NCBI GenBank assembly: GCA_031270325.1
Contig: JAISXW010000022.1
Span: 1 to 60,979, forward strand
Direction: 5' to 3'
Source of the DNA: Streptococcaceae bacterium
GTDB lineage: Bacteria; Bacillota; Bacilli; Lactobacillales; Streptococcaceae
DNA length: 60,979 nt
The translations under genes and the position numbers were made by a program. Positions 35,853 to 60,979 of the stretch are shown here, one piece after another (position 1 is the first letter of the stretch; each line of letters begins with the position of its first letter). Under the pieces are notes generated by a model. The model searched no databases. It worked only from the letters and a program-made list of their open reading frames with translations, and was not told where the DNA came from.

Positions 35853-37427
35853 CTAAATCTCAACCTCCGCACCGTCCTTAAACCTAACCACAACTCTCCC
35901 ATCAACCGCTACCGTCATCACCTCCACCAAACTTCTAAACAATTCCTCGTCAAACTTTTCAACCACACCGACCATTTCAAGCTCTGCGATGAACAGTTCC
36001 ATCTGTTCTCGCCTTGCTTGTTTTTGTGTGATATCAAATTTGACTGCCTCAAGTCTGGTGTTGGTTGTGTCGAACCGCTCTACCAAATCATTGTACCGTT
36101 TTTCGTAAGCCACTTGGTCCAGTGCGACTCGTGCATTCTCCTCAATCGCAGAATTTATGCTCTCTGCTAACTCGTTGATCTTACCCTCTAGTTCGTCTTG
36201 CTCCTGTTCTAGTGTTGCCGTGTCAAACAAGATTGCTTTCATTTCGTGATAGTTGTCAATGACCTCTGCTTTCATTTTAACTAGTTGATTGATTGCCTTG
36301 ACAACGATTGCTTTGATTTCCTCATCACTCAAATGCGGTGTCTGGCACTTCTCGCTTTCGTCATATTTGTGGTTACATCGCCAAATACGCTTGCGGTATT
36401 TGCTAGTACTATGCCAAATCTTACTACCATACCAAGAGCCGCAGTCTCCGCATTTAATCTTGCTTGAAAAGATGTTGACTGAAGATAGGCGATTCTTGCC
36501 TTTTGTTCTAACTGCCAATAAGTTCTGAACCATGTCCCATACTTCTGGTTTGATGATGGCCTCGTGGTTGCCTTTAACATAGTACTGTGGAATCTCGCCT
36601 GCATTGACTTTCTTTTCCTTGGTCAAAAAATCTACTGTATAGGACTTCTGAAGGAGCGCATCGCCTTTGTACTTTTCATTTTTTAAGATGCTTTGAATAA
36701 TACCTGAATGCCAAGTTTGTTTGCCGGCAGGTGACAGAATCCCCTCTTCCATCAGTTGTCTTGCAATGGCGTGTGGCGAGAGACCTTTTAAGAATAAACC
36801 GTAAATCTTTTTCACAACTTTTGCTTGTTCCTGATTGACGACTAAATTCCTATCGGGTCCCATATCGTAGCCTAAGAACCGTTTGAAAGGTACGGTTACT
36901 TTGCCATCCGCAAAGCGTTTCCGTTGTCCCCAGACGACATTCTCTGAAATACTGCGACTTTCCTCCTGTGCTAGAGAACTCATGATCGTAATCAGTAATT
37001 CCCCCTTGGAATCCAATGTCCAGATGTTTTCTTTCTCGAAATAAATCTCAACGCCTTTTTCCTTCAGTTGCCTGACTGTTGTCAAGCTATCCACCGTGTT
37101 TCTTGCGAACCTTGAGACACTTTTCGTAATGATTAAATCAATTTTCCCATTTAAGGCATCAGAAATCATCTGTTGAAAACTGATGCGTTTTTTGGTATTG
37201 GTGGCGGAAATCCCTTCATCCGCATACATCCCCGCAAACTCCCAATCTTCTCGACCCTTGATGTAGTTGGTGTAGTAATCAATCTGCGCCTCATAACTTG
37301 TCTGTTGTTCTTCTTGTTCCGTTGAAACACGGGCATAGGCTGCGACCTTACGCTTGGTTAACTGATTGATAGGTGCTTGGTTGAACTTACTGATCGTTGC
37401 TGGAATCGTTGTGACTTTCTTTGTCAT
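35853..37427 (-). CDS. Large serine recombinase (prophage integrase), downstream copy
   Basis: 524 residues: N-terminal resolvase domain with the nucleophile Ser in AYARVSTEQEEQ, conserved ISRFARNTVD and SLAQEESRSISENV segments; then the recombinase domain, a zinc ribbon (CGDCGSWYG...CNHKY...C) and a coiled coil near 400-480. It probably inserts or excises the prophage. Start follows AAAGGAAAACTC. It overlaps the upstream recombinase gene by 41 nt, so both are made from one transcript. Confidence 0.9.
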   Translation of the reverse strand: MTKKVTTIPATISKFNQAPINQLTKRKVAAYARVSTEQEEQQTSYEAQIDYYTNYIKGREDWEFAGMYADEGISATNTKKRISFQQMISDALNGKIDLIITKSVSRFARNTVDSLTTVRQLKEKGVEIYFEKENIWTLDSKGELLITIMSSLAQEESRSISENVVWGQRKRFADGKVTVPFKRFLGYDMGPDRNLVVNQEQAKVVKKIYGLFLKGLSPHAIARQLMEEGILSPAGKQTWHSGIIQSILKNEKYKGDALLQKSYTVDFLTKEKKVNAGEIPQYYVKGNHEAIIKPEVWDMVQNLLAVRTKGKNRLSSVNIFSSKIKCGDCGSWYGSKIWHSTSKYRKRIWRCNHKYDESEKCQTPHLSDEEIKAIVVKAINQLVKMKAEVIDNYHEMKAILFDTATLEQEQDELEGKINELAESINSAIEENARVALDQVAYEKRYNDLVERFDTTNTRLEAVKFDITQKQARREQMELFIAELEMVGVVEKFDEELFRSLVEVMTVAVDGRVVVRFKDGAEVEI

Positions 37428-38796
37428 GAGTTTTCCTTTCTTTCCATTTCTGCTTTGCTAGTATACTGTGTTTTGCTTTTTGCTCATCGGTCCATATTTC
37501 TTTTTGGATGGCACGCATTCTTGCTTTTTGTTCATCCGTCCATATCGTTCCTTTTTTCTTGGGTACCGTATAGGTTCTAATTGCCTTGCGACCATTTTTA
37601 AACACAAACGTCAGTTCATATGATAAAACTTCAATATATTCAATTTCATTTTTGTAACTCTCCTCATCAAACAGTTCTATGCTCAAAACGTCAGCTGCGA
37701 TTGCTCGTAAACTCGGTTCCCTTATCGTTCTGGCTTCACAATGAGATGCACCATATTTGGTTTTGGTGCTACAGTTCCAATAAGACAACCGTCCTTGAAC
37801 AGTCTTTCTGCGTTTTCGATGAAAACTTGCTCCACAGTAGCCACATTTTATAGTGCTCGTAAAGCAAGTCGTATTCAGGCTCCAGTTAGATGTCGCACCT
37901 TCTGCTAATCGTCTAGCCCTCTCTTCAACACAAGCATGCCAAGTCGCCATTGAGATAATCGGTTCATGGTGATTCTCTACTAGGTAAGACGGAAACTCTC
38001 CTTTGTTTCGTTTAGATTTTTTGGTCAGTGGATCAACCACAAATTCCTTTTGTAATTGAAGTGTCCCATTGTAGGTATTATTGAGTAAAATTGAACGAAC
38101 TGACGCACCTTTAAATTCTCCTCCTTTGAAACTCTTAACACCACGTTCTGTCAGGAGTTTAGCAGTTTTCTCTGCTGAGATTTTGTTAAGGTAATTAGCG
38201 AAAATCTCTCTGACAATTTCCGCCTCTTCTGGCACAACAATCAGCTCATCACCCTGCCAACGATAACCATAAAGATTCTGCTTTGAGTTCGGAAGACCTT
38301 GCTTGTAGCGTTTTTGAATCGACCATTTGATGTTGGTGCTCATGCTTTGGATCTCCTCTTGGGCAAATGAGGCAAGGATTGAAAGCATCAACTCCCCATC
38401 TCCTGTTAGTGAGTGGATGTTTTCCTTTTCAAACCGAACCTCAACGCCTAATGTTTTGAGACGCCTGACTGTTTCAAGCAAATCAACTGTGTTTCGGGCA
38501 AACCGTGAGATGCTTTTCGTCAAGATAATGTCAATCTTGCCGTTCTCTGCATCTTGAATCATCTGTTTGAAAGATAATCTGGAACTTGTCGAGCCTCCCG
38601 ATATGCCGTTATCCGAATAGACTCCTGCGTAGACCCACTCTGGATTCTGCTGTATCAATTTAGAATAGTAGCTAATCTGAGCTGACAACGAGTGTTTCGT
38701 TCTGCCTTTATCAACCGACACCCTAGCATATGCTGCAACCTTCAATCGCTGAGTGATTTTGGCTTGTGTCGGCTCGATTCTTTGTATTACTTTCAT
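37387..38796 (-). CDS. Large serine recombinase (prophage integrase), upstream copy
   Basis: 469 residues with the same layout as its neighbour: catalytic Ser in AYARVSVDKG, ISRFARNTVDLLETVRRL, LASFAQEE, recombinase domain and zinc ribbon (CGYCGASFHRK...CSTKTKYGASHC). It lacks the long coiled coil; its C-terminus instead has two copies of an IWTDEQKA motif in a basic, Lys-rich tail. ATG 38796 follows AAAGGAGGA. Whether the two recombinases act as partners, or one for integration and one for excision, is unknown. Confidence 0.9.
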   Translation of the reverse strand: MKVIQRIEPTQAKITQRLKVAAYARVSVDKGRTKHSLSAQISYYSKLIQQNPEWVYAGVYSDNGISGGSTSSRLSFKQMIQDAENGKIDIILTKSISRFARNTVDLLETVRRLKTLGVEVRFEKENIHSLTGDGELMLSILASFAQEEIQSMSTNIKWSIQKRYKQGLPNSKQNLYGYRWQGDELIVVPEEAEIVREIFANYLNKISAEKTAKLLTERGVKSFKGGEFKGASVRSILLNNTYNGTLQLQKEFVVDPLTKKSKRNKGEFPSYLVENHHEPIISMATWHACVEERARRLAEGATSNWSLNTTCFTSTIKCGYCGASFHRKRRKTVQGRLSYWNCSTKTKYGASHCEARTIREPSLRAIAADVLSIELFDEESYKNEIEYIEVLSYELTFVFKNGRKAIRTYTVPKKKGTIWTDEQKARMRAIQKEIWTDEQKAKHSILAKQKWKERKTHDKESHNDSSNDQ

Positions 38797-48636: not shown

Positions 48637-50355
48637 TTATATAGTAGCCATCAAGTAATCTATAATTTTATTTTTTCGTATATCAATCAGCTCCTTAGTC
48701 CATTTTTTTGAATCTTGAGTCATATCATAAACCTCCTGCTGATGTTTTAAAGGACTACCATTATAAGTTTTTCTTTTTTCCTCAAATGGTCGGTTACCAA
48801 TTGCTCTATTATGACTTGCTGATAATAACAGATGATTCCCTATTGAATCTAAATACTTTTCTTTAAATTCATCGTCATATTTTGGATAGCCATTTGCTAT
48901 TGGTTCGCCGTTAGTAGGAGTTTGAGGTGCAATATGTTCCAAGTCCGGTGAAATCACGTCATCAAAAGCTCTAGGCTTATAGCCAAGGATTTTTTCGCTT
49001 GATAGATGATTTTCATACAGCCAAAGTAAATATTTACTTACACCCCTGTTCATTGTTTGTTCTAACTTTTCTTTTACTTTATCATCGTTCCAAGAAGCCC
49101 ACCACCAAGATTCATTATCTATATGTTTCATCCATTCAATGTGAGAAATTATAGCATCTACATTTTTTCCAACTTCTGAAAGATCGTCAAATTCTTTAAA
49201 CTTATCATTCAATCTTATCGCCAAATCTGTTTTTCGGTTGGTAAGTCGTTTTCTTAGCAATATATCTCTTAAAGCCTTAGCAAGTTTCCCTTTATTATCA
49301 TCCGAAATGTTGAATCTGTAGGATTTTATTATAAATGGCATCGCTAATGCTATCCCCCCTAAAGATATAAGCTCTTCGAAAGGCCAAATTTTTTTTCGAT
49401 CGTTGCGATAAAACTGAGTTAGATTTTCAAAAGAATTTTCTAGATACTCCGTGAAATTTTTTGAGAATTTAATCGGATCTTCCACTAGCTTAGCTTCAAT
49501 TTTTTTATCGGGTTCCTCAACCTTTAAATTATTGAGAAAAACCTGAACAGCATAACTCAGTATGCTATCTTCATCGAGATAATCTTCAAGAAAAGAGATT
49601 GACTCATATATTCTTTCAAATCTTGACTTAATTTGTTCTATCACTCCAGATTTTACGCTATCATTTTCTTTTGATAAATGTATTTGAAACATCATTTTAG
49701 CTTTTAAAATTTCTAATCTACTTGGACTTTTTCCTCGATTATTTTCAAAAATAAACATTTGAATTGCTTGTGTTTCAGATTCTACTTGAAATGTCGAACA
49801 AGAGGCTTCAGAAATAGCTGAAAAGACTTTTTGCAGATATTCTGCATCTTTATCCCAAAAGTATGCTTTAAATTTATCATACGCTGTAACAATACGTTTT
49901 TGTGAACTGCTTTTTGGATTTATCTTACTTTTATTTTCTTCAAAAATATAATCAATAAAGACTTGATTGTCGTAACTTACTGTTGAAAAATTATAATCAT
50001 ATTCCGTTCCAATAAATTGATTACATTCTTTTTCAATTTCGATTGAATTTTCATTCCGACTTTCAATTACATGAAAAATTGCAGCAGTAGCAATCATAAT
50101 AGTAGTCAACCGTTGTTGACCATCTATGATAGCGTATTTATTCTCCTGGGTTTTTTCAAAAATAAAATGACCAAAATAGTATGGATTCTCCGTTTTACTT
50201 TCTATATATTCCTCAATATCCAATATAAACTGATCGATTTGTTTGATTTTATTATCTCCAACCTCCCATGAATAAGCTCTCTGATAAGATGGAACGTGTA
50301 TTTTATTTCCTGAAACCATTTCTAATATAGTCTGCTTATTACTTGTATTTATCAT
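48637..50355 (-). CDS. DUF262/DUF1524 protein (GmrSD-like, probable antiphage nuclease)
   Basis: 572 residues. N-terminal DUF262 domain with YQRAYSWE (near 20) and the nucleotide-binding DGQQRLTT; C-terminal DUF1524 His-Asn nuclease domain with DLEHIAPQTP and GNHLLLSASHNRAIGNRPF. In the characterised member GmrSD these domains use NTP hydrolysis to drive cleavage of modified phage DNA. Strongly A+T-rich compared with the structural genes around it. It has its own extended -10 promoter, AAAGGGG ribosome site and hairpin, so it is a cargo gene inserted between tail chaperone and tape measure. Confidence 0.85.
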   Translation of the reverse strand: MINTSNKQTILEMVSGNKIHVPSYQRAYSWEVGDNKIKQIDQFILDIEEYIESKTENPYYFGHFIFEKTQENKYAIIDGQQRLTTIMIATAAIFHVIESRNENSIEIEKECNQFIGTEYDYNFSTVSYDNQVFIDYIFEENKSKINPKSSSQKRIVTAYDKFKAYFWDKDAEYLQKVFSAISEASCSTFQVESETQAIQMFIFENNRGKSPSRLEILKAKMMFQIHLSKENDSVKSGVIEQIKSRFERIYESISFLEDYLDEDSILSYAVQVFLNNLKVEEPDKKIEAKLVEDPIKFSKNFTEYLENSFENLTQFYRNDRKKIWPFEELISLGGIALAMPFIIKSYRFNISDDNKGKLAKALRDILLRKRLTNRKTDLAIRLNDKFKEFDDLSEVGKNVDAIISHIEWMKHIDNESWWWASWNDDKVKEKLEQTMNRGVSKYLLWLYENHLSSEKILGYKPRAFDDVISPDLEHIAPQTPTNGEPIANGYPKYDDEFKEKYLDSIGNHLLLSASHNRAIGNRPFEEKRKTYNGSPLKHQQEVYDMTQDSKKWTKELIDIRKNKIIDYLMATI

Positions 50356-50636: not shown

Positions 50637-50689
50637 AACAGAACTCGACACGCCTCTCTTTTGATGCGGACCACGTCGAGTCATTTTTT
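50637..50689 (+). ncRNA. Candidate structured RNA upstream of the AbiF-like gene
   Basis: From the predicted start site there is a 7-bp perfect stem ACTCGAC (50643-50649) / GTCGAGT (50675-50681) enclosing an inner CGC/GCG pairing, followed by six T residues (50684-50689). It resembles a short RNA with its own terminator placed between promoter and ORF. A conserved structured RNA has been reported upstream of AbiF-family genes; membership of this sequence in that class is inference. Confidence 0.5.
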
Positions 50690-50708
50690 ATTTATAGGAG
50701 ATAACAAA

Positions 50709-51578
50709 ATGCCTCTTAAACCACAACAACAATCACTTACGATTGACGAACAAATTGAAAATCTTAAAAATCTCAATCTCACGATCCAAGATGAAAATTT
50801 TGCACGTTTATTCTTAAATGATGTGTCCTATTTTCGCTTTATTAAAGCATATAGTCTTGGATTGAAACCCAAAAATGGTAATTACTACAATGGGGTGTCA
50901 TTTGAACATATTGTTGAGTTGTATCGCTTCAATGCAAATTTACGACAAGAACTTCTTCCACATATCGAGCGTGTTGAGATAAATTTACGTGCTCGTATAG
51001 CTAATTATTTTTCAGTCAAATACGGAACACTTGGTTATAAAGATAGTTCCAATTTCACTAATTCGTTTTATCATCAACAATTTATAAACAATATCTCTCA
51101 AGAAATCAATAGAAACAAACGTTCTCCATTTATCAAAAATTATCAAAATAACTATCAAAATGCCGATATCCCATTTTATGCGCTGGTCGAAATTATAAGT
51201 TTTGGAACACTTTCAAAATTCTACAAAAATTTATTAAATGACGATAAAAAGCATATCTCTAAAAGTTATGGTGTCTCTTATAAATATTTTGAAAGCTGGA
51301 TTGAAAGCATTGCCTATGTTCGTAATCTATGTGCACACTACGGTAGGCTTTACAATGCCATTCTTACAAAAAAGCCAATTTTGTATAAGCAATTCAACGA
51401 AGCAGGTATAAGAAACGATAGACTTTTCGGAATCCTTTGTTGCCTAAAAGAACTTGTTCCAGATGATCATCATTGGGATAAATTTGTCAATAATATTGAA
51501 AAGAGCTTCTCAAAATATCCTCATGCCGATAAATTCAAAATGGGCTTCCCCATTAACTGGATACAAATTTTGAAATAA
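50709..51578 (+). CDS. AbiD/AbiF-family abortive infection protein (Abi_2)
   Basis: 289 residues from the ATG at 50709, which follows AGGAG; the frame opens at 50661 inside the leader hairpin. The family hallmark regions are present: N-terminal LTIDEQIENLKN and FLNDVSYFRFIKAYSLGLK, central VELYRFNANLRQELLPHIERVEINLRARI, and the C-terminal HEPN-type RxxxxH motif in RNLCAHYGRLYN, suggesting an RNase. It is on the plus strand, opposite to all phage late genes, with its own promoter and terminator. A prophage cargo gene, probably expressed in the lysogen. Confidence 0.88.
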   Translation: MPLKPQQQSLTIDEQIENLKNLNLTIQDENFARLFLNDVSYFRFIKAYSLGLKPKNGNYYNGVSFEHIVELYRFNANLRQELLPHIERVEINLRARIANYFSVKYGTLGYKDSSNFTNSFYHQQFINNISQEINRNKRSPFIKNYQNNYQNADIPFYALVEIISFGTLSKFYKNLLNDDKKHISKSYGVSYKYFESWIESIAYVRNLCAHYGRLYNAILTKKPILYKQFNEAGIRNDRLFGILCCLKELVPDDHHWDKFVNNIEKSFSKYPHADKFKMGFPINWIQILK

Positions 51579-57422: not shown

Positions 57423-58379
57423 TTAGCGAATTCCATTATTAAAGTTTTTTACACCTAATTTTTTTATTTTTGGTAAATTCTTGGTAACAAAATCAGCACC
57501 ATTCTGTATGCTCCACCGTGCTTCTTTTATGTTCTGGTGACTCGCAAGTTTTTCAATATATGGCATATCAACATCCCCAAAACTAAATCCAAATACATAT
57601 ACATTTGTAATATCATCTAAATTCAATTCATTTAATCTCTTTAATTGTAATTCCTTTCTCGTTATCCTAACGATTTCAGATAAATTATATTCTGCTCCAA
57701 TTAAATTTTCGTTTTCACTTTCATCTTCACTCAAGACTCTTCCATGTCCAAAAATGATACTATCCTTTTTATCAATTGTTCCATGAATATGAATAACTTC
57801 GTCTATAGAATAAATTTCTTCCAAAGTTTTTGTGTAATTAAATGATAAAAACAAATTCTCTGATTCGTCAAATTTATCACGTATTACTTTTTTTTCATAA
57901 ATTTCGTCTAACGATATTTGACTTGCCCACTCCGCAAAATATCTTTTTACATTTTTAAATACTTCAATCCATTTTTCAGAGGCGTCTTCATTCGTTCTTG
58001 AACTTTTCCAGGGATCTTTATCTTCGTCTTTATCAATAAATTCTGGAATATCATTATCCGAAAATTCGGAATAACGAAGACACCCCAAACTATTCTCAAA
58101 GTCATTCCAACTGTCATCCGTAGAATGATCCTGAATAATTTTCAAAATGAATAGAGCACTATCAGAATCACTTACACCACATCCATCCTTACCTGTCGTC
58201 TGTAGGTCAAATGTATTTAGATTCCTTTGTTCTAAATTTTCCAATATATCTTTTTTAAAGTCTGAATAATCCGATTCTTTCCCAATAAATCGATTATATA
58301 AAAATTCTGCGAAATCATAATATCCTGTTTTCAATCCGTGTGCTATATCAAAGCCATTTCCTATAATCCATAAATTCAT
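57423..58379 (-). CDS. AbiH-family abortive infection protein
   Basis: 318 residues. The N-terminal motif IIGNGFDIAHGLKTGYYDF is the AbiH signature; C-terminal LFLSFNYTKTLEEIY, VIHIHGTIDKKDSIIFGHG and VFGFSFGDVDMPYIEKL complete the family pattern. In lactococci AbiH stops phage development by an unknown mechanism. The gene is A+T-rich compared with portal and terminase, and is a self-contained insertion between them, with its own promoter overlapping the terL stop and its own terminator. Confidence 0.9.
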   Translation of the reverse strand: MNLWIIGNGFDIAHGLKTGYYDFAEFLYNRFIGKESDYSDFKKDILENLEQRNLNTFDLQTTGKDGCGVSDSDSALFILKIIQDHSTDDSWNDFENSLGCLRYSEFSDNDIPEFIDKDEDKDPWKSSRTNEDASEKWIEVFKNVKRYFAEWASQISLDEIYEKKVIRDKFDESENLFLSFNYTKTLEEIYSIDEVIHIHGTIDKKDSIIFGHGRVLSEDESENENLIGAEYNLSEIVRITRKELQLKRLNELNLDDITNVYVFGFSFGDVDMPYIEKLASHQNIKEARWSIQNGADFVTKNLPKIKKLGVKNFNNGIR

Positions 58380-58411: not shown

Positions 58412-58440
58412 ATTCTACTATTTTGCTACAAGAAAAACAA
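58412..58440 (-). promoter_or_regulatory. Promoter of the AbiH-like gene
   Basis: TTGTTT (58440-58435), 17 nt, TAGAAT (58417-58412) on the minus strand. The -35 and part of the spacer lie within the last codons of terL; the ATG is about 30 nt further. Confidence 0.7.
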
Positions 58441-60979
58441 CCCTCGATCATCATAGACGCTTGCCGTATTTGTATTTCCACAACGAATAGCTCTATCCAA
58501 TGCCATAATCGTCGCAATTGCTCCATCAATTTTCTCAGTTGATTTTTCTTTGTCAGCTTTGATATTACCTGCTGGGTCAGTCCTAACGAAGATGTTATCC
58601 ATATTCCAACGCAGCACTGGATGACCGCCATGAGCTAATTTTTCTTCAAGCGTGAGTTTCATCAGCTCTTTAGTCGGTGGACTCATATCCTTAAAGCCTT
58701 GTCCGAATGGGACGACAGTAAAACCCATGTTTTCTAAGTTCTGTACCATTTGAACTGCGCCCCAACGGTCAAAGGCAATCTCTCTGATGTTGTATTTCAG
58801 CCCTAGCTCCTCGATAAATTTCTCAATAAAACCGTAATGAACCACGTTACCCTCGGTGGTTTGGACGTAGCCTTGTTTTTCCCACAAGTCATAAGGGACA
58901 TGGTCACGTTTGACTCGAAGCTCAAGCGTATCTTCTGGAATCCAAAAATATGGCAGAACCACAAATTTGTCGTCCTCATCTACGGGTGGAAAAACCATTA
59001 CAAAAGCCGTCATGTCGGTAGTGCTGGATAAGTCGAGTCCGCCATAACAGACACGACCCTCTAGTTCTTTTTCGTCAAACTTGAACGAGCAAGCATCCCA
59101 CTTGTCCATTGGCATCCAACGTACAGCTTGTTTCACCCATTGATTAAGTCGCAACTGCCTGAAGGAATTCTCCTCTGCTGGATTTTGCTTAGCCGACTCG
59201 CACGCAGCTTTGACTTTTTCCATTGTAATGGTCGCATCAATCGAGGGATTGGCTTTCTTCCAAACTTCTGGGTCTGTCCAATCCTCGGTTTCACTAGCTC
59301 CGTAAATCACAGGATAAAAAGTCGAGTCATGTTTGCGATTCTCAAGAATATCAAGTGATTTTTGATGTTGCTCATAACAAATCGAATGCGTGTCCGTCCC
59401 CGCTGTCGTAATCAAAAAGAACAAGGGTTGTTGTCTCGCATCCCCCGCACCTTTGGTCATGACGTCAAATAATTTTCGATTAGGTTGGGCATGAAGTTCA
59501 TCAAACAAGATGCCGTGACTTGAAAAGCCATGTTTACTGTACGCTTCAGCCGATAAGACTTGATAAAAGCTATTGGTCGGTGTGTAGATAATTCTTTTTT
59601 GGGAGGTTAGAATTTTAACCCGTTTACTCAATGCGGGGTTCATGCGAACCATATCTGCCGCAACGTCAAAAACAATGGATGCTTGCCCTCGGTCTGCTGC
59701 ACAGCCGTAAACCTCGGCACGTTCCTCACCATCACCACAAGTTAAAAGTAATGCCACTGCCGCTGCCAGTTCACTGTTGTGCGTTGGTAAACAAGATTTC
59801 CCAATTAAATATTGGTGGGATGAACTATCAACTTGAATACATTGCATCCCTTTATTTTTAATAGGGATAATTCTATCAATATATCTAAAATGACTTCTTG
59901 TTTGAGGGTTTCTTTCCGTGCTATTCGATTGTTTGCGGTAAAGCCCGCACACTTGAGTATCTGTGAACGAAGTAAACTTGACATAATATAAAGTCTCTCC
60001 TGTTTCAATTCGTCCACACTCATTGCTAAGTTTACTCCAATCCGTTCGTTGAGTAGATTTTGCAGTTGAAATAGAATTTTTAATTCCAAGACTCCAAAGC
60101 AACTCACTCACTGACTCAGAAAGTTGTTTTTCAGTAGAGGTATAAATTGCTTGCCCTTTTACGCCATTCACACAACCATCTGAATCCATCAATCCTTGCA
60201 GTAAACGTAGTCTCTGTTCGTAAGAAGCACGTAAATAATCAATAGGAATTTTCTTTTCATGAAAACTTTTCAATAAGATTGTTCTCAATGCTGGCACTCG
60301 AACAACGATACTGTCTCCAACATTTAACCATGTGCTTTGCACATTATAAAAGCCGACAATATTTTTCAATACGCCTGCTATATCTTCAGTCTTAATTGTA
60401 ATTTCTGGTTTAATCGCATTGCCATTTCCTAACCAGTAACCCATTAAATAAGGTTCAATTGGTAGAGACTTTTCTCCTGTTTTGATTGGGTTGGCAATCG
60501 GTATTCTAAATCGATAGGAGTTTCCATTTTTCGGTAATCGATAAAGCTCTCCAGTTGTCATAATACAATCCCTACGCATACCTCTGGTATATTGACCAGT
60601 CCATTGATGATGTTCACCCGCCTCTATGATTTCTCCATCTTTGAAAACAATCTGATAAGCTTGCTCATCGTAATCAATTTCGCTTTTAGCTACAACATTA
60701 CAAACATTACCATTCTCGTCAAACACCTGATTGCGAACTTTGATTTGTCCCATAGTTGTGTAGCCGCTAGGTGTTGGAATCAAAGTATCTAATGCGACTT
60801 GTTTGCCATTTTTTTTCGGAATTTCAACGTATGCCGTGTTAAATTGACGATAGCCGTTTTCTTTAATCGTACCAAACAAATCTCGGATAATCTTTTCTTG
60901 CCAAGCCAACAGTTTGAATGGTTTGCCATACCATTGACCCTTTGTATGTTTCAACAATTCGATAAAATCGACCGCATAA
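58426..60979 (-). CDS. terL: Terminase large subunit with in-frame intein (5' end outside window)
   Basis: The frame is open through the right edge (YAVDFIELLKHTKGQWYGKPF), so the start is missing; 850 residues are visible. Exteins form a Terminase_1 protein: Walker A PKKNGK|SELAAAVALLL (split by the intein), Walker B GILFDELHAQP, LITTAGTD, and the nuclease domain with YGGLDLSSTTDMTAFV and FDRWGAVQMVQNLENMG. The motor packages phage DNA and cuts it at the end. It must be spliced to work, since the intein divides the ATP-binding loop. Confidence 0.95.
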   Translation of the reverse strand, partial: YAVDFIELLKHTKGQWYGKPFKLLAWQEKIIRDLFGTIKENGYRQFNTAYVEIPKKNGKQVALDTLIPTPSGYTTMGQIKVRNQVFDENGNVCNVVAKSEIDYDEQAYQIVFKDGEIIEAGEHHQWTGQYTRGMRRDCIMTTGELYRLPKNGNSYRFRIPIANPIKTGEKSLPIEPYLMGYWLGNGNAIKPEITIKTEDIAGVLKNIVGFYNVQSTWLNVGDSIVVRVPALRTILLKSFHEKKIPIDYLRASYEQRLRLLQGLMDSDGCVNGVKGQAIYTSTEKQLSESVSELLWSLGIKNSISTAKSTQRTDWSKLSNECGRIETGETLYYVKFTSFTDTQVCGLYRKQSNSTERNPQTRSHFRYIDRIIPIKNKGMQCIQVDSSSHQYLIGKSCLPTHNSELAAAVALLLTCGDGEERAEVYGCAADRGQASIVFDVAADMVRMNPALSKRVKILTSQKRIIYTPTNSFYQVLSAEAYSKHGFSSHGILFDELHAQPNRKLFDVMTKGAGDARQQPLFFLITTAGTDTHSICYEQHQKSLDILENRKHDSTFYPVIYGASETEDWTDPEVWKKANPSIDATITMEKVKAACESAKQNPAEENSFRQLRLNQWVKQAVRWMPMDKWDACSFKFDEKELEGRVCYGGLDLSSTTDMTAFVMVFPPVDEDDKFVVLPYFWIPEDTLELRVKRDHVPYDLWEKQGYVQTTEGNVVHYGFIEKFIEELGLKYNIREIAFDRWGAVQMVQNLENMGFTVVPFGQGFKDMSPPTKELMKLTLEEKLAHGGHPVLRWNMDNIFVRTDPAGNIKADKEKSTEKIDGAIATIMALDRAIRCGNTNTASVYDDRGLFFL
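59776..60801 (-). other. Class 3-type intein with LAGLIDADG endonuclease domain in TerL
   Basis: 342 residues inserted between Lys and Ser of Walker A. Splicing blocks: N-terminal QVALDTLIPTPSGY (position 1 is Gln, not Cys/Ser), block B GEHHQW, block F QCIQVDSSSHQYL, and C-terminal SCLPTHN followed by Ser+1. The Trp in block B, Cys in block F and Thr before the final His-Asn form the W-C-T set that defines class 3 inteins, in which the block F Cys replaces the N-terminal nucleophile. Two LAGLIDADG helices are visible, LMGYWLGNGNA and LLQGLMDSDG; the first has Asn where the catalytic Asp is expected, so the endonuclease may be inactive. Confidence 0.9.

Follow-up and report, generated by a model that had tools for sequence, protein, structure and literature searches.

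A predicted class 3 intein in the terminase gene of a Lactococcus-type prophage and the asparagine its lineage keeps in the first LAGLIDADG motif

Inteins in the large terminase subunit (TerL), the phage DNA-packaging motor, have already been published, some at the insertion site considered here and some with demonstrated splicing and cleavage (PMC5050341). TerL1-a inteins separate Lys from Thr in the P-loop in mycobacteriophages and a Kocuria prophage, and the TerL1-b intein of mycobacteriophage Baka has been shown to splice and cut (PMC5050341). Here we describe an intein in the terL gene of a Lactococcus-type prophage from a Streptococcaceae bacterium (assembly GCA_031270325.1). The whole stretch of DNA that was analyzed, referred to as the window, is 60,979 nucleotides long and is the entire contig JAISXW010000022.1 (C25) of a 1.47 Mb genome bin that is 70.55% complete.

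The TerL intein of phage Bruin (L080) is like the window intein in its P-loop site, its class 3 Trp/Cys/Thr residues, and its LAGLIDADG domain, but it has Asp in motif 1 and Thr at position +1 and is only 29.9% identical to the window intein. Baka TerL1-b is likewise an intein of the TerL P-loop region with class 3 residues, but its insertion site is one residue off and its motif 1 reads GDG. The class 3 DnaB inteins of Mycobacterium smegmatis (6bs8) and M. chimaera (6rix; PMC7664689) share the Hint fold and aligned catalytic residues with the window intein but lack an endonuclease domain and interrupt a different host protein. PI-SceI has Asp at both motif positions, whereas the clade of inteins to which the window copy belongs has Asn126 at the first, and where PI-SceI has Asp at residue 229 the clade has Lys, Gln, or Arg. 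PI-SceI splices by the class 1 pathway. On the comparisons given below, we think it reasonably probable that the clade is a mobile class 3 intein lineage in which the LAGLIDADG domain acts on DNA by means of an Asn/Asp pair rather than Asp/Asp.

Insertion site and splicing residues

A minus-strand frame (60978..58426) encodes TerL and is split by a 342-residue insert; all intein and extein features below are on this strand. The intein with its LAGLIDADG-fold domain (60801..59776) is free of stops and continues the TerL reading frame at either junction. It begins with Gln after ...YVEIPKKNGK, ends in THN, and is followed by SELAAAVA..., and the P-loop Lys and Ser are thus separated, as in insertions of the TerL1-a type. 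The N-extein (60802..60979) retains 59 codons ending in the P-loop residues EIPKKNGK; the TerL N terminus and start were lost at the contig end, up to which the frame is open. The C-extein (58426..59775, stop included) starts with Ser+1 and holds the remaining ATPase domain and the nuclease domain. Pfam matches in the whole TerL frame were TerL_nuclease (E = 7.8e-47) and TerL_ATPase (E = 2.1e-17) on the C-terminal side of the insert and LAGLIDADG_3 (E = 1.7e-08) inside it. Because the intein interrupts the P-loop, TerL would have no ATP-binding loop until splicing is complete. A preliminary description of the window had placed the insert, with no strand given, in the Walker A motif at 59776..60801 and had proposed that packaging depends on splicing. 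That location and those coordinates are exact, with translation and the family alignment confirming the Lys/Ser split, and the dependence of TerL on splicing follows from the insertion site. Among 59 related genomes, only one had a match to the intein, with 78% identity, in a member of the same genus (Lactococcus insecticola), whose TerL N-extein has 86 residues back to the preceding stop.

The residues expected of a class 3 intein are all present and align with those of the solved structures 6rix and 6bs8. Position 1 is the nonnucleophilic Gln1 (60799..60801) instead of Cys or Ser; in a 52-row family alignment this column held Gln in 42 rows, Glu in 4, Leu in 3, and a gap in 3. In block B, His65-x-Trp67 (60601..60609) was found with each residue in 50 of 52 rows and 2 gaps, Trp67 matching the Trp of both structures. 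Cys321 of block F (59839..59841), the predicted initiating nucleophile, was found in 51 rows with 1 gap, and Thr340-His341-Asn342 of block G (59776..59784) in 50 rows with 2 gaps. Two of the six patterns used to fetch the 52 rows held Trp67 or Cys321. The nucleophilic +1 residue is the P-loop Ser (59773..59775), whose codon, AGT, is considered with the codon survey below. With its Trp-Cys-Thr set, its terminal Asn preceded by His, and its Hint fold, the window insert is by its sequence features a class 3 intein. This bears out the class assignment previously made from these residues, Gln1, and Ser+1, and the block B Trp and block F Cys do stand at class 3 positions.

We infer splicing, DNA recognition, the type of break, and the likeness of the window copy to its relatives in behavior. 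In splicing, Cys321 would attack the N-splice junction to form a branched thioester, as in the class 3 mechanism; Ser+1 would then take the N-extein, Asn342 would cyclize, and the P-loop Lys and Ser would be rejoined. Of the columns with conservation of 95% or more, the window copy deviates at just two, Gly23→Arg and Asp24→Asn (60730..60735). Both changes are in the splicing part, and the rate of splicing would be, if anything, the first property to check in this copy.

Asparagine 126 in the first LAGLIDADG motif

The inserted domain has the LAGLIDADG fold with two motif helices, but these end in Asn126 and Asp208, whereas canonical two-acid LAGLIDADG endonucleases have an acid at the end of each. 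The motif sequences are LGNGN (first) and GLMDSDG (second). Helix 1 (PYLMGYWLGNG, residues 117-127) lies at 60421..60453 and helix 2 (LLQGLMDSDG, residues 200-209) at 60175..60204. In an alignment of the clade endonuclease profile with PI-SceI, Asn126 (60424..60426) corresponded to residue 218 (Asp) and Asp208 (60178..60180) to residue 326 (Asp); taken by itself the first segment is a weak match (8.0 bits), although order, spacing, and fold are consistent with this alignment. Asp208 was found in all 88 clade rows, and Lys183 (60253..60255) was invariant in the clade and in all 17 Asp-type relatives of the first outside-clade set.

Asn126 was not confined to the window copy. A scan with residues 200-342 only, which used two patterns blind to residue 126, returned 399 loci, and the best 80, which share contigs with earlier scans, all had GNG. 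All 47 full-length rows from the first scans and the window also had Asn126, encoded by AAC in 33 and AAT in 14, and on the tree of these rows at least 7 synonymous codon changes had taken place at residue 126 with no change of residue. Reversion to Asp takes a single mutational step and was absent from both the 80 loci and the 47 rows. The first alignment-based scan was biased toward Asn by its pattern, GYWLGNG, and 47 of its 48 new loci held Asn. The 88-row set includes 41 rows from that scan, and the main counts were redone without them; it omits shortened loci and four near-copies from the same scan (L136-L139). In this set (AAC 60, AAT 28), at least 13 codon changes were accompanied by no residue change, and Asn126 was kept as strictly as Asp208, Lys183, and Cys321.

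Outside the clade, 34 class 3 inteins with a domain had Asp (31), Glu (1), or Asn (2) in motif 1. These came from 18 loci hand-picked from 653 phage records and 17 loci from two scans, of which one locus (L334) lacks the domain; near-copies were kept in. The 20 clade rows grouped together (support 100/99) in a tree of class 3 inteins with 38 rows, in which branches were long and no sister of the clade was firm. These comparisons indicate that Asn126 is a shared character of the clade, not a loss in the window copy. A literature search, mostly at the level of titles and the beginnings of abstracts, found no Asn-type LAGLIDADG lineage and nothing on this clade.

The preliminary description had correctly read GNGN where GDG is expected; what did not hold was the argument from the Asn to a probably dead endonuclease. 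A recent Asp-to-Asn change late in a homing cycle, leaving the window endonuclease decaying or dead, would account for an Asn where an acid is expected, and genuine decay may be exemplified outside the clade by L331. However, every domain-bearing clade member read shared the Asn (80/80 and 47/47), and the window copy had no departure from conserved columns within its endonuclease domain. Changes specific to the window or to L. insecticola, with L037 as the outgroup, numbered 8 versus 13 in 100 N-splicing columns, 11 versus 7 in 184 endonuclease columns, and 2 versus 0 in 40 C-splicing columns, with no marked excess in any part. We therefore regard recent decay as very improbable.

L331, a class 3 insert with Asn in both LAGLIDADG motifs, makes a more convincing case for a dead endonuclease. 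It and L076 (Acidovorax phage ACF1) were considered as parallel working Asn lineages and rejected as single loci outside the clade, L331 also because it lacks the second acid. A compensating acid at residue 182, which adjoins Lys183, was rejected as well because it is not specific to the Asn clade: of the 99 clade rows in which residue 182 is represented, 97 had an acid, as opposed to 2 of 17 Asp-type relatives in the first outside-clade set, but the second such set had an acid in 9 of 16.

Asn-Gly is the pair that deamidates fastest in flexible peptides, and Gly127 was found in all 88 clade rows (one with an ambiguous third base). Asn126 might thus be a pro-residue that deamidates to an acid after synthesis and turns the nuclease on late. 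However, Gly was also kept in 17/17 Asp-type relatives, so that the pair need not carry meaning, and residue 126 lies at the end of a helix, a setting in which deamidation tends to be slow. We give this explanation little credence.

Selection and movement of the lineage

All 88 clade frames were open. Median Nei-Gojobori ratios of nonsynonymous to synonymous divergence (dN/dS), from 74 pairs that are not independent, were 0.058 for the N-splicing part, 0.079 for the endonuclease, and 0.037 for the C-splicing part. The endonuclease domain is under strong purifying selection; a domain kept open by the reading frame alone would be expected to have a dN/dS much closer to 1. Nor is the domain needed for an in-frame insert, as demonstrated by L034 (3001-3453), a natural mini-intein of 151 residues that occupies this site, has no endonuclease domain, and has kept the splicing residues and frame.

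Strong selection would fit any retained function, and catalysis might have been lost once in the clade ancestor, with the domain then kept to stabilize the intein, tune splicing, or bind DNA and the intein spread through ordinary phage recombination. The Asn at one catalytic-acid position throughout the clade is consistent with such a loss. However, the mini-intein retains splicing residues and frame without the domain, and a purely structural role would not call for the strict conservation that Asp208, Lys183, and the second motif share with Asn126. We consider ancestral loss a serious but rather unlikely alternative, to which the movement data below also apply.

If the domain instead works at the DNA level, as we favor, the LAGLIDADG fold would bind the intein-free P-loop sequence of another terL and break the DNA there, and repair would copy the intein and some flank into the broken gene. 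With Asn126 in place of the Asp of most relatives and with Asp208 and Lys183 kept, the enzyme would work with one changed center. The domain may cut both strands, nick one, or do neither, and it is possible that it makes no double-strand break. Loss of the acid in one center makes strand-biased nicking a natural guess. We only tentatively suggest that this sizeable group of phage inteins homes by means of an asymmetric Asn/Asp enzyme that would nick a single strand at the terL P-loop, or gain activity only once Asn126 has deamidated, instead of producing the usual double-strand break. We know of no natural LAGLIDADG nickase, and a literature search with partial coverage, at the level of titles and the beginnings of abstracts, found none. 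Nicks can reportedly promote gene correction (PMC3164693). The two LAGLIDADG centers often appear to share a metal ion (PMC3943268), in which case a one-sided change would affect both strands; this counts against a simple nickase.

Occupancy of the site is sporadic, as is typical of mobile inteins. Among the matches listed, 80 TerL relatives on viral contigs (83-87% identity to the C-extein) comprised 76 with an empty P-loop, 3 with an intein, and 1 that was cut, i.e., an intein at 3 of 79 readable sites. Synonymous divergence (dS) was compared in 3570 pairs among the 85 of 88 genes with sufficient C-extein. In 47 pairs with intein or extein dS below 0.7, near-identical pairs excluded, intein dS was lower in 41; it was more than twofold lower in 27 and more than twofold higher in none. 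With one pair per cluster, intein dS was lower in 10 of 12, some nearly equal, and without the rows from the GNG-biased scan it was lower in 13 of 16 (more than twofold lower in 11, more than twofold higher in 0). This recurrence of low intein divergence in separate clusters also speaks against ancestral loss.

In base-by-base profiles of ten pairs, divergence stepped at the 3' junction in L127/L128 and L003/L006, whose upstream flanks are near-identical. The step was weaker in L159/L160, and in L014/L015 the pattern was reversed, with downstream flanks alike; the other profiled pairs were mixed. Junction steps with similar flanks fit either flank copying or recombination of larger blocks. The Ser+1 codon was AGY in 75 of 88 intein-bearing genes versus 24 of 76 empty genes; AGY accounted for 368 of 1329 other Ser codons in intein-bearing C-exteins, with 6/88 at Ser+75 and 38/88 at Ser+131 of the same genes. 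The excess could reflect flank copying or a preference of the enzyme for certain sites. Judging by the divergence comparisons, a number of relatives seem to have passed recently between terL genes that are themselves diverged. Such apparent movement, the clade-wide Asn126, and purifying selection are what led us away from the proposed dead endonuclease.

Several observations weigh against a domain active on DNA. Asn or Ala at PI-SceI residue 218 or 326 reportedly stops Mg-dependent cleavage, the Asn218 result being the pertinent one. The existence of a mini-intein without the domain is a further such point. When pairs were picked by extein dS alone, intein dS was lower in just 10 of 16, and the effect must come partly from pair selection. 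Flanks often shared the low divergence, mostly upstream but downstream in L014/L015, so that some of these blocks may have traveled by general phage recombination; flanks that travel with the intein are also expected from ancestral loss. Parsimony required 5 AGY/TCN changes at Ser+1 on the intein tree, and related rows thus inflate the significance of the AGY excess. Lastly, the window and L. insecticola copies were 78% identical in the intein and 86% in the C-extein, with intein dS at the ceiling of 4.0 and extein dS at 2.5, and this pair gave no sign of a recent transfer of the window copy. The absence of excess intein mobility in this pair would also suit ancestral loss. Our statements on movement concern the clade rather than the window copy. 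Direct dating of the window intein was rejected because dS is saturated.

A motif-based reading would label the Asn lineage dead, although it is under constraint and seems to move. If the domain does cut or nick, one of the two LAGLIDADG catalytic acids is replaceable in nature, which would bear on the shared-metal model of catalysis and make an asymmetric enzyme available from nature. If there is no cleavage, the strict conservation of a noncutting homing domain needs another explanation. The many natural homologues and empty target genes make the question a clean one for in vitro testing.

Clade members L042, L046, and L052 are in records under Alistipes, Actinomycetaceae, and Mobiluncus curtisii, besides the members in Bacillota. 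The intein lineage may cross phyla, but two of these three are bins and could be misplaced. Contig C37 of the same bin as the window carries, at bases 1-457, an intein-free terL start (L061) that ends early and has Pro in place of Ser+1. C37 and C25 begin at the same base; the first 119 shared bases are identical to the end of the window, 12 mismatches then precede the site, and 197 of 270 ungapped positions match thereafter. L061 is possibly an assembly branch between two prophages and speaks neither for nor against homing.

Neighboring prophage genes

An AbiH gene (57423-58379, minus strand; Pfam E = 9e-45) is located between terL and the portal gene. AbiH was not found in 339 fetched loci (tblastn, 1e-5), some of which stop short of the portal. 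In an L. insecticola-type prophage (L247, 3952-4845), the terL-portal gap holds a different gene with the motif HPFIDGNGRTGR, which we take to be Fic-like. From these gene arrangements, the gap looks like a cargo site. The stretch from the tail genes to the capsid gene includes a GmrSD-type restriction gene (48637-50355, minus strand) and an Abi_2 gene (50661-51578, plus strand). Counting AbiH, the structural region of this single prophage has three defense-like genes. Farther away, two overlapping large serine recombinases with Resolvase, Recombinase, and zinc ribbon domains are encoded in tandem on the minus strand (35853-38796).
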